Assembly: GCA_019359155.1 (NCBI GenBank)
Contig: JAHHHV010000090.1
Coordinates: forward strand, 1 to 64,000
DNA length: 64,000 nt
DNA from: Pegethrix bostrychoides GSE-TBD4-15B
GTDB taxonomy: Bacteria; Cyanobacteriota; Cyanobacteriia; Elainellales; Elainellaceae
Direction of reading: 5' to 3'
Shown here piece after piece: positions 35,490-38,123 of the stretch (the first letter of the stretch is position 1; each line of letters begins with the position of its first letter). The notes under the pieces were generated by a model. That model did not search any database. It worked only from the letters and a program-made list of their open reading frames with translations, and had not been told where the DNA came from. A program made the translations under genes and the position numbers.

Positions 35490-36251
35490 TCAACTCTCTG
35501 GCGGAAATAGTCGATCTTTAGAAAAATCGGCAGCTCTAGCAATCCGAATTCCCTCTAACGCCACATAGGCCACCTCAGGGATGTACTGATCGGGCGGCTG
35601 CTCAGGGGCACGCGCCATGAAGTCCGCAATCCGAATTTGGGTAGGCTCTAGACGCAGCGCCATGATGACGCAGCGGAGGTTGCCCTTTGCTCCCGCCTGC
35701 GCCACCCCCCGCAAAGCCCCCCAGACCAACACATCGCCATCCGCAATAATTGAGCTGCCCGGATTCACATCGCCCAGCACGACAACGCTACCCGCGTGAC
35801 GGACTTCTACGCCCGAACGCACAGTCGTCTCTAGATAGAGCGGTTCAGCCAGCGCTTTGCCCGCTTCAAAGCCCTGTGCCGGAGACTGCTGCTCCACCGA
35901 AAAGCCCGTTGTTGCCGCAGCCACAGCAGTCTGGCGGCGGCTGGTATAAACTCGCTTCAGGTACAGCTGCGCGTCACTCAAGGCATCAGCAATGGCTTGG
36001 AGCTGTCGTCCGTCCAGCAGCCGATCTCGCGCCACCAGGTAGACCGGCGTATGAGCTTGCCAAAACCGCTCGTTAGCGTTCAGCCGCTGCTTAAACTGCT
36101 GCCACAGATCAGCCCAGCTGGTAGCCGCTGCTTCGCTCTCCAGCGGCAGCAGCAGCAGTAGCCTGTCGCCTTCGCTCTTAAATCGCACCTGGGGCACGGC
36201 TTGCTCCACGATGGGAGTTCCAGCTGCCGAGATGAAGGGATCAGAAGTCAT
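35490..36251 (-). CDS. minC: Septum site-determining protein MinC
   Basis: This 253-residue protein blocks FtsZ ring formation away from mid-cell when recruited by MinD. The C-terminal dimer domain is clear: SGVEVRHAGSVVVLGDVNPGSSIIADGDVLVWGALRG, then IMALRLEPTQIRIADF. The N-terminal half (about 20-110) is more variable, as is usual for cyanobacterial MinC, with a linker around 110-135. It opens the minCDE operon, 98 bases before minD. Confidence 0.95.
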   Translation of the reverse strand: MTSDPFISAAGTPIVEQAVPQVRFKSEGDRLLLLLPLESEAAATSWADLWQQFKQRLNANERFWQAHTPVYLVARDRLLDGRQLQAIADALSDAQLYLKRVYTSRRQTAVAAATTGFSVEQQSPAQGFEAGKALAEPLYLETTVRSGVEVRHAGSVVVLGDVNPGSSIIADGDVLVWGALRGVAQAGAKGNLRCVIMALRLEPTQIRIADFMARAPEQPPDQYIPEVAYVALEGIRIARAADFSKDRLFPPES

Positions 36252-36480
36252 AAGAGCAAGGCGTATGGAATAGCTCCAGACTATCAGGATTCAATTTAAC
36301 TTTCCATCTTGCAACGCTTTTATCTAGTTTATCTAGAAGCTGCGGCGACTGAAGTCGAGGCTGTGCAGCGGCTCAGGGCTATTAAAACTCGAATTGCCAG
36401 CGGAAAATCCGTGACCAAGATCACAGGAATCCGCTGATCTAGATCGCGACTATGCCAAAGCGCTGAGGCATACTTAAGAG
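36252..36480. other. Spacer between minC and the small RNA array
   Basis: No gene is supported. The last ~50 bases contain GATCTAGATCGCGACT...GAGGCATACTTAA, whose pieces recur upstream of the other two RNA copies, so it probably holds the promoter of copy 1. Confidence 0.5.
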
Positions 36481-36557
36481 GACTCAACTCTAGCCGAGTC
36501 ATCAACAGGGAACACACGACTTGCCGACAGCGACCTCACGGAAACTGTCGGTTTTTT
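36481..36557 (+). ncRNA. Small RNA copy 1 of three, candidate Yfr2-family
   Basis: A 5' hairpin GACTC...GAGTC (36481-36500) is followed by a conserved single-stranded segment containing AACAGGGAACACACGACTTG, then a terminator hairpin CCGACAG (36524-36530) / CTGTCGG (36545-36551) and six T. The same sequence with few changes recurs twice downstream. No ORF fits. I infer an independently transcribed small RNA. The GGGAACACA core and ACTTGCCG-terminator layout recall the Yfr2 family of cyanobacterial RNAs from memory. The exact 5' end is not known. Confidence 0.75.
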
Positions 36558-36657
36558 ATTGGCCATCTTTACTATTAGCCACTTTACGGCTGGTTCTAGC
36601 TGCCTGTTTCGGCTCAGCCAATTCGATTTAGCCTGCCGTACTATAAATTCCAAAACG

Positions 36658-36733
36658 AGTCAATAGAGTAGATCACGATAGCAGGATGATCTAGATTGCA
36701 ACTGAGAAATCAGCGCCGAGGCATATTGAAGAG
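36658..36733 (+). promoter_or_regulatory. Conserved upstream element of small RNA copy 2
   Basis: The block from GTCAATAGAGTAGATCAC through GATGATCTAGATTGCAACTGAG to GAGGCATATTGAA is almost identical to 37012-37078 before copy 3, and shares short blocks with the region before copy 1. Conservation up to, but not beyond, about 75 bases before the RNA suggests a shared promoter. TATTGA is the most likely -10; no good -35 fits at normal spacing. Confidence 0.55.
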
Positions 36734-36812
36734 GACTCAACTCTAGCCGAGTCATCAACAGGGAACACACGACTTGCCGATAGCGACCTTACGGAAGCTG
36801 TCGGTTTTTTTT
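36734..36812 (+). ncRNA. Small RNA copy 2 of three, candidate Yfr2-family
   Basis: Same architecture as copy 1. The terminator stem is CCGATAGC / GCTGTCGG with eight pairs including one T-G, followed by eight T. The central segment is identical to copy 1 over the 5' hairpin and the GGGAACACACGACTTGCCG block. Transcription on the plus strand is inferred from the T-run. Confidence 0.75.
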
Positions 36813-37011
36813 GCTTTGATTTTTCTGTCAGCTTTGCGTTAGCTATTAGCTATCACTACGGATCTGATTCAAAATTCAATGCCTGCCCAGAACTGCTTAA
36901 CCGACTGCCTGAAACCTAGACCGAACCTAGTCAAAACTTTAAAACTGCTGCTATCGGAGCTGATGTGCTATCAAAGCTGACGATTGAGGGAACTGTCAGA
37001 TTAGTCAATAG

Positions 37012-37078
37012 AGTAGATCACAGCAACAGGATGATCTAGATTGCAACTGAGAAATCAGCGCCGAGGCATATTGAAAAG
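37012..37078 (+). promoter_or_regulatory. Conserved upstream element of small RNA copy 3
   Basis: Near-identical to the 36658-36733 element, including GATCTAGATTGCAACTGAG and GAGGCATATTGAAAAG. The similarity ends sharply at its left edge, so the duplicated unit of copies 2 and 3 is about 145-155 bases long. Confidence 0.55.
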
Positions 37079-37155
37079 GACTCAACTCTAGCCGAGTCAT
37101 CAACAGGGAACACACGACTTGCCGGTAGCGACCTTACGGAAGCTATCGGTTTTTT
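37079..37155 (+). ncRNA. Small RNA copy 3 of three, candidate Yfr2-family
   Basis: Same architecture. The terminator stem is CCGGTAGC / GCTATCGG, followed by six T. Compared with copies 1 and 2, the stem differs at two positions on either arm, and pairing is preserved: the pair C-G of copy 1 is T-G in copy 2 and T-A here. This compensatory change is direct sequence evidence for a selected RNA structure. Confidence 0.78.
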
Positions 37156-37403: not shown

Positions 37404-38123
37404 ATGGCTCCTGATGATCATCAGATGGATCTATTTAACTCAGCGGCAGTCACTCAGCCCAGCGAGCCAGTAGAGCCTGAGCTGATTCCAACTAGCGCCA
37501 GAGTGCCTGTTCCCCCCGGCACCTATGCCTCAATGGAGAAAATGTCAGAGCACTGCAATCGGTGCCATCGCTGCGGATTAGGGGCAACGCGCATCAAAGC
37601 GGTCGTGGGTCGGGGCAACCCGCAGGCCAAGATATTGATTGTTGGAGAAGGGCCAGGGCAGAATGAAGATGAGACGGGGCTGCCGTTTGTGGGCAAGGCG
37701 GGACAGCTGCTCGACAAGATTTTGGAGTCGGTGGGACTGAGCGACGCAGATGTATTCATTGGCAATATTGTCAAATGCCGCCCGCCCGATAACCGTACTC
37801 CCACGCAGGAAGAGATGGATGCCTGCCGTCCCTATTTGCTAGAGCAGATTCGCATGGTCGATCCAGGCATTATCTTGCTGACGGGCGCTTCGGCGGTCAA
37901 AGGGCTAGTGGGCGACAAGCGCGGCATTACTAAAATTCGGGGGGAGTGGATTGAGTGGGAAGGGCGACTCTGTATGCCCGTGTTCCATCCTGCCTATCTG
38001 CTGCGCAACCAGTCACGCGACAAGGGCAGTCCCAAATGGCTGATGTGGCAAGATATGAAGTCGGTGCGAGCCAAGCTCGACGAGCTGAGAGCTGAGTCAG
38101 AATCTGCCCCGCAAAAGATCTAG
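37404..38123 (+). CDS. Uracil-DNA glycosylase, family 4 (iron-sulphur)
   Basis: The 239-residue enzyme removes uracil from DNA in base excision repair. The N-terminal variable part (1-50) is followed by HCNRCHRCGLGATR (cluster cysteines), the uracil-binding motif VGEGPGQNEDETGLPFVGKAGQLLD, KCRPPDNRTP (two more cluster cysteines near here and in DACRPYL) and the motif PVFHPAYLLRN with the catalytic-loop His. These fit family 4 UDG, often found in cyanobacteria. It stands alone after the small RNA array. Confidence 0.9.
   Translation: MAPDDHQMDLFNSAAVTQPSEPVEPELIPTSARVPVPPGTYASMEKMSEHCNRCHRCGLGATRIKAVVGRGNPQAKILIVGEGPGQNEDETGLPFVGKAGQLLDKILESVGLSDADVFIGNIVKCRPPDNRTPTQEEMDACRPYLLEQIRMVDPGIILLTGASAVKGLVGDKRGITKIRGEWIEWEGRLCMPVFHPAYLLRNQSRDKGSPKWLMWQDMKSVRAKLDELRAESESAPQKI

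Follow-up and report, generated by a model that had tools for sequence, protein, structure and literature searches.

The window analysed here is a stretch of 64,000 nucleotides, and on its plus strand, at positions 36481-37155, it carries three copies of one unit of about 77 nt, starting at 36481, 36734 and 37079. Position 37155 is the end of the poly-T of copy 3. The initial annotation had placed the array between minC and a uracil-DNA glycosylase gene, and both of these genes indeed score above their NCBIfam cut-offs. The features of the locus are listed below, with the scores of the units in two covariance models (R1 and R2) that we built for the family.

35490..36251, minus strand: minC, divergent flanking gene (NCBIfam NF001778, 345.7 bits, cut-off 315)
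36481..36557, plus strand: predicted small RNA (sRNA) copy 1, from predicted 5' end to poly-T (R1 99.6 bits, R2 96.7 bits)
36734..36812, plus strand: predicted sRNA copy 2 (R1 95.2 bits, R2 90.4 bits)
37079..37155, plus strand: predicted sRNA copy 3 (R1 89.9 bits, R2 89.8 bits)
36481..36500, 36734-36753 and 37079-37098, plus strand: predicted 5' hairpin, same sequence in all copies
36501..36523, 36754-36776 and 37099-37121, plus strand: conserved, presumably single-stranded core, from the conservation of AGGGAACACA
36524..36557, 36777-36812 and 37122-37155, plus strand: predicted intrinsic terminator, from reading, folding and the family alignment
37404..38123, plus strand: family-4 uracil-DNA glycosylase gene, flanking (NCBIfam TIGR00758, 181.2 bits, cut-off 125.3)

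Reading and alignment confirmed that the three copies have the 5' hairpin, the core and the intrinsic terminator in common. The first 43 nt, which comprise the hairpin GACTC...GAGTC and the core ATCAACAGGGAACACACGACTTG, are 100% identical in the alignment of copies 1, 2 and 3. Between copies 2 and 3 the identity is 95% across 153 nt, so that the upstream sequence shared by them, previously put at about 70 bases, amounts to about 76 nt, whereas copies 1 and 2 are only 65% identical across the equivalent 153-nt stretch. The most recent duplication is therefore probably the one that gave rise to copies 2 and 3. With up to three mismatches the core 16-mer occurs at three places in the window, all of them in the units, and three matches were obtained in 1 of 100 shuffles. 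A DNA search of the whole genome (5.72 Mb) found the unit three times.

In the terminator stem one pair is C-G, T-G and T-A in copies 1, 2 and 3, respectively, and a neighbouring pair is A-T, A-T and G-T, exactly as the initial annotation had it. These compensatory changes had been taken as a sign of selection on an RNA. Pairing is indeed kept, but since every intrinsic terminator preserves its pairing, the changes support termination and not a regulatory function. A simple terminator scanner flagged none of the three unit terminators; its sole call (shuffle mean 0.9) fell on the opposite strand, at the 5' hairpin of copy 3. The folding energies of copies 1, 2 and 3 are better than the mean of shuffled sequences but not extreme (z of -1.55, -2.55 and -2.98), with 17, 0 and 2 of 200 shuffles folding at least as well.

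Among 52 sequences of the family 96.4% of the cells of the terminator helix are paired, and double changes occur at four of its seven pairs. The whole structure of 12 pairs has four double-change pairs in this set compared to 0.9 in shuffles, although several controls with a slid structure equal or exceed the true one in double-change cells. The control slid by +3 even reached a covariation score of 0.127 against 0.087 for the true structure, and 21 double-change cells against 5, but only 46% of its cells are paired. The 5' hairpin showed no double change among the 52 sequences. In a set of 79 distinct rows its outer pairs fail to form in 44 and 46, Nostoc-type sequences being an example. An inner, shorter stem (ACTC/GAGT) could form in 97.8% of cells; it hardly varies and shows no covariation, in rows mostly fetched by a pattern that itself fixes GAGTC. 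One of the copies at L090 has a wholly different 5' stem with pairing retained, and changed 5' stems were also read in the copies at L272. Both exceptions speak for a hairpin. The predicted 5' hairpin is likely to exist, though these comparisons test it weakly.

We determined the distribution of the unit by sequence and by covariance search. A blastn search with copy 1 gave matches in 45 of 60 related genomes, the own genome counted. R1 was built from 32 sequences, and its terminator structure string is offset by one column; R2 was built from 52 more diverse sequences, and for R2 and for the pair counts the right string was used. Both models found the unit in the same 48 genomes of a phylum sample of 386, which is a lower bound given the stricter filters of large searches. 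The weakest listed match scored 44.0 bits with R1 and 59.4 bits with R2. All window copies fit the model of hairpin, core and terminator (about 80 positions) with 89.8 bits or more in R2, copies 1 and 3 having been used to train R2, and all three copies to train R1. A scan with a 21-nt pattern gave at least 114 stretches, and 79 of the 80 named loci listed contain the unit according to the model. Genera with the unit among the matches listed are Nostoc, Calothrix, Fischerella, Leptolyngbya, Nodosilinea and Adonisia. A pattern match in an Acidimicrobiaceae MAG (L091) was rejected, as it matches neither R1 nor R2. No match to the unit was found on plasmids at E 1e-5, and 58 viral stretches with a 17-mer pattern reached 23.7 bits at best (E 0.037) and were dismissed as chance.

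Since the 21-nt pattern spans the core, conservation of the core was scored on rows that had not been fetched by it. In the sets A3 and A4, 90 of 93 and 42 of 52 rows, respectively, come from exact-pattern loci covering GAGTC and the core, so that conservation of hairpin and core is partly built in there. AGGGAACACA is intact in all 32 rows found by blastn (A2), in all 28 loci found by the models (L036-L063) and in 23 of 27 further units. It is altered in both copies at L272 and in L273 and L287, which makes the core nearly but not absolutely invariant. Start codons are few in the unit, and none is common between units. The earlier reading of three tandem small RNA genes is thus supported, as a prediction, by conservation of the unit in many genera, by its conserved promoter and terminator and by the absence of a common reading frame. 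Judged by sequence, the unit is a member of a widespread and deeply conserved family of putative cyanobacterial sRNAs that is distinct from Yfr2.

Membership in the Yfr2 family had been proposed on the basis of core and terminator. Like Yfr2, which we take to be the RNA that Rfam names Cyano-1 (RF01701), the unit is short, ends in a Rho-independent terminator, can be present in multiple copies per cyanobacterial genome and contains an A/C-rich GAA-ACAC motif. The assignment was not borne out by the Rfam search that the initial annotation had suggested as a check. Rfam 15 matched no family in the whole window at gathering score, RF01701 (gathering score 41 bits) giving 0 matches, and between 36252 and 37403 RF01701 was absent up to E = 10, where four matches to unrelated families appeared below threshold, the best at E = 0.14. 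The true Cyano-1 genes of the genome lie on other contigs (C78:36078-36150, minus strand, and C66:54112-54179, plus strand) and score 52.2 and 45.2 bits, above the Rfam cut-off. Rfam searches of ten other loci, eight of them with the unit, returned only these two genes and one tRNA, all in L004 and L005, the loci of the two genes. The loop of both genes reads CGAAACACGGAAAG, which loosely resembles GGGAACACACGAC, and this likeness may explain the earlier assignment to Yfr2.

The architecture differs as well. Yfr2 is described with a 5' end that is unpaired and conserved, and with a 12-nt loop, likewise conserved, on a long bulged stem (PMC2662882); the predicted folds of the units, however, begin with a hairpin and place the conserved motif between this hairpin and the terminator instead of in a hairpin loop. 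That the units are Yfr2 RNAs is thus extremely improbable. Yfr1 is similar in that it is widespread in cyanobacteria and has a presumably unpaired, fully conserved motif (PMC4734099) sited between two stem loops (PMC6778093), but by reading the unpaired Yfr1 motif CACUCCUCACACC is not present in the units.

The sequences upstream of the units contain a conserved palindrome. We analyzed 137 of the 149 collected units, all distinct and with at least 100 nt of upstream sequence; the units dropped were duplicates or had less than 100 nt upstream, and L052 was left out. The sequence TGTGA-N6-TCACA, with at most one mismatch in its ten defined positions, is found in 119 of the 137 promoters, and with at most two mismatches in 127, compared to about 1.5 of 137 in mononucleotide shuffles at the latter threshold. 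The best sites are centred between -75 and -52 from the unit start, mostly at -63.5 or -64.5. Sites with at most one mismatch occur in 82 of 88 promoters of pattern-fetched units and in 37 of 49 others. After the upstream sequences had been merged into 70 clusters by single linkage at 70% identity or more, such sites remained in 57 of the 70 cluster representatives, compared to 0.26% of dinucleotide shuffles. A second, weaker site is located near -42, and in several genomes a third near -86.5, giving a spacing of about 22 nt. In four f36 genomes (L044-L046, L049) a perfect palindrome is found at -43.5 instead. Many relatives have CATACT or CATAAT at the place of a -10 element. The corresponding elements of the window are:

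36410..36425, plus strand: CRP-type site 1 of copy 1, CGTGACCAAGATCACA, centred at -63.5 and differing from TGTGAN6TCACA at one position
36433..36448, plus strand: weaker site 2 of copy 1, GCTGATCTAGATCGCG, centre -40.5, 4 mismatches
36469..36474, plus strand: predicted -10 element CATACT of copy 1, with a counterpart in relatives suggesting its role
36662..36677, plus strand: site 1 of copy 2 in degenerate form, AATAGAGTAGATCACG, with its right half retained and 5 mismatches
36685..36700, plus strand: site 2 of copy 2, GATGATCTAGATTGCA, centre -41.5, 4 mismatches
36722-36727 and 37067-37072, plus strand: predicted -10 element CATATT of copies 2 and 3
37007..37022, plus strand: degenerate site 1 of copy 3, AATAGAGTAGATCACA, 4 mismatches
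37030..37045, plus strand: site 2 of copy 3, GATGATCTAGATTGCA, centre -41.5, 4 mismatches

Copy 1 thus has a consensus site for the cAMP receptor protein (CRP), spaced from the -10 box as expected for activation. In copies 2 and 3 only the right half of site 1 is left, the other half having been lost, together with site 2, which is kept. A sigma-70-type scan called no promoter and was uninformative, shuffles averaging 1.2 calls. Enterobacterial sRNAs under CRP control include CyaR and Spot 42, to which the unit can be likened by its promoter, with TGTGA-N6-TCACA sites at activating distances. In cyanobacteria CRP sites of the form TGTGAN6TCACA have been described about 22 bp upstream of a TAN3T -10 box (PMC2633013). 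Three second copies (L014, L286 and L287 in the genomes G041, G030 and G022) are without a near-consensus site and another copy in each of these genomes has one; control has possibly changed after duplication.

The genome of the window encodes a CRP-like protein with the recognition helix ARETVTR, which matched E. coli CRP chains at an E-value of about 7e-18; its score of 81 bits is below the NCBIfam CRP cut-off of 266. We searched this protein in the phylum sample and found it in 127 of 386 genomes at E <= 1e-35 and in 109 at E < 1e-70, with a gap in the E-values between about 1e-76 and 1e-47. At E < 1e-70 it is present in 47 of the 48 genomes that carry the RNA, compared to 62 of the 338 RNA-free ones (p about 9e-29 in a Fisher test without correction for phylogeny). 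Genomes with the RNA are thus, with one exception, a subset of those with CRP, and since 62 of the 109 CRP-bearing genomes are without the RNA, the presence of CRP is not enough to predict it. The exception, G155, has the RNA and a one-mismatch site, with only a weak CRP match. Six genomes (G117, G204, G247, G293, G299 and G332), which we take to be Nostocaceae, contain the CRP protein and no detected copy of the RNA, and appear to have lost it.

Control of the promoter by another protein of the CRP/FNR family, such as NtcA, a PtrA-like protein or a second CRP-like protein, instead of cAMP-CRP has to be weighed, given that the genome encodes NtcA (387.5 bits, above the cut-off of 244.95) and several further members of this family. 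NtcA sites have moreover been redefined as GTN10AC (PMC6166021), which the motif also fits. The half-sites of the best sites, however, are GTG/CAC in 128 of 137 promoters, as in CRP sites, and not GTA/TAC as in the NtcA consensus GTAN8TAC (PMC3898017). According to the same source NtcA is universal in cyanobacteria, yet 47 of the 48 RNA-bearing genomes are found among the 109 with CRP. We therefore regard another regulator as unlikely and CRP as the most likely one.

The genomic neighbourhood was surveyed for the two nearest genes on each side in 79 named loci among the matches listed, and the neighbour families were named by assigning one example of each. An allophycocyanin-like gene, presumably apcD, is located near the unit in 44 of the 79 loci, a gene for an RlmD-type 23S rRNA methyltransferase in 30, while purL was found in 20 and the window's glycosylase neighbour in 3. 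In 53 of 82 further loci, those of the own genome included, minC, the glycosylase or the allophycocyanin-like gene lies nearby. The neighbourhood thus changes between lineages while the RNA persists, which favours action in trans. If the units instead acted in cis, as leaders or attenuators of the gene downstream, as the vicinity of the glycosylase gene in the window and in several relatives might suggest, one would have to account for the allophycocyanin-like neighbour, which is the next downstream gene and convergent in 34 of the 44 loci with it, and for the terminator at the end of each unit. We consider a function in cis very unlikely.

Two to three copies within a short stretch were found in 6 of the 79 named loci among the matches listed (L067, L087, L090, L127, L129 and L136), and G224 and G343 likewise contain several nearby copies of the unit. 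The threefold array in Calothrix, with purL and apcD as its context, and the array of the window, in the context of minC and the glycosylase gene, are most likely of separate origin. Tandem repeats of an sRNA are also known for NsiR1 of heterocystous cyanobacteria. NsiR1 differs in its location upstream of hetF (PMC3610870) and in its dependence on HetR (PMC9045159), whereas the unit has CRP-type sites and occurs outside heterocystous genera too.

Taken together, the window probably contains three tandem genes for a CRP-activated, trans-acting sRNA of about 77 nt that belongs to a family other than Yfr2. Each copy would be transcribed from its own promoter, where a protein of the CRP/FNR family, most likely CRP, would bind TGTGA-N6-TCACA near -64 and usually also the weaker site near -42. 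From there it would recruit RNA polymerase to the -10 box, as happens at class I/II CRP promoters. The predicted transcript would fold into the 5' hairpin and the terminator, exposing the nearly invariant core around AGGGAACACA between them. We infer that this core has its effect in trans, for which pairing with mRNAs is the most likely way.

Complementary sites of the core were searched in the own genome. Complements of the 17-mer core with up to three mismatches occur at 6 non-self sites (two to three mismatches), compared to 3 for a reversed control, and exact complements of a 10-mer at 2 non-self sites, as many as for the reversed control. Pairing with the two Yfr2 RNAs of the genome was not significant, since 68% and 12% of shuffled cores paired as well. 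A membrane protein gene in L191 and L324 was discarded as a candidate target, its conservation being limited to two genomes. At L290 the core has an exact 10-nt complement, located some 25 nt ahead of a candidate start codon; the gene is presumably CRISPR-associated (DUF1887-like).

A near-complement of the core (17-mer, two mismatches) is located upstream of an hpsA-like gene of the own genome, whose product scores 258.7 bits with NF038301 over a part of 650 residues, against a cut-off of 400 for the whole protein. A second site with identical letters lies elsewhere in the genome. In close relatives the complement is seemingly strongly conserved, with up to 18/19 matches to the own genome's core. 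We scored 100 upstream regions of hpsA-like genes, leaving out for example G303, G045 and extra copies in G038, and obtained p <= 0.05 for 18 of 65 RNA-bearing rows compared to 2 of 35 other rows as labelled; the labels are imperfect, in that the RNA-bearing genomes G007, G042, G044 and G076 were scored among the others with the own genome's core. Without these four the second group consists of 31 rows with one match (G003). Of the 18 positive rows, 13 come from the window's own family.

In L294 and its relatives a conserved, promoter-like element of two blocks is found about 165-350 nt upstream of hpsA-like genes. It consists of TCGTRNTTTCYCTGTTGAT followed at near-fixed spacing by GTTGTTAAGACAGT in the family of the window, and of TCAGTATTTTCC followed by GATATAAC in Nostocaceae, where it is also present in genomes without detected RNA (G247, G299). 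The block resembles the J-Box, with its consensus GGGaAtacT (PMC6495340), only in reversed orientation. It would be part of a promoter and hence lie outside the mRNA, and the first block probably nearly complements the sRNA core by chance. As a demonstrated target hpsA was accordingly rejected: it fails across the phylum and represents a chance best match in a conserved promoter-like element.

That no conserved mRNA complement was found in these searches would fit an RNA that binds or titrates a protein, similar to the sponges CsrB and RsmZ, instead of pairing with mRNAs. So would the long, nearly invariant sequence and the repeated tandem amplification, by which extra copies would raise the dose. 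Each transcript, however, contains a single core and not many repeated motifs, no protein partner is known, and homologues of RsmA/RsmE are described as not identifiable in cyanobacteria (PMC2662882). We hold such a sponge to be the main rival to pairing with mRNAs, though an unlikely one.

Neither Rfam 15 nor the literature searched provided a name for this sRNA family, and no CRP-controlled cyanobacterial sRNA was reported in that literature. In the main texts of openly licensed papers the strings of the core, the hairpin and their reverse complements occurred only in papers on other organisms by title, and none of the papers listed there combined one of the presumed Nostoc locus tags with the word sRNA. 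Enterobacterial CRP works partly via sRNAs, and we see about even chances that the family constitutes a corresponding RNA arm of the cyanobacterial cAMP-CRP regulon. This would be an ancient sRNA, controlled directly by CRP in genera ranging from Thermosynechococcus to Nostoc, which would pass a cAMP signal on to mRNAs via its core and whose dose would have been raised by several independent tandem amplifications. The cyanobacterial CRP regulon has been described as highly diversified between species (PMC2633013). An sRNA whose promoter has near-perfect CRP sites in distant lineages would provide cAMP signalling with a defined and conserved output that could be deleted and measured, and the family is one missing from Rfam 15. 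The Nostoc sRNA list of PMC4734099 may include the RNA as an unnamed row.
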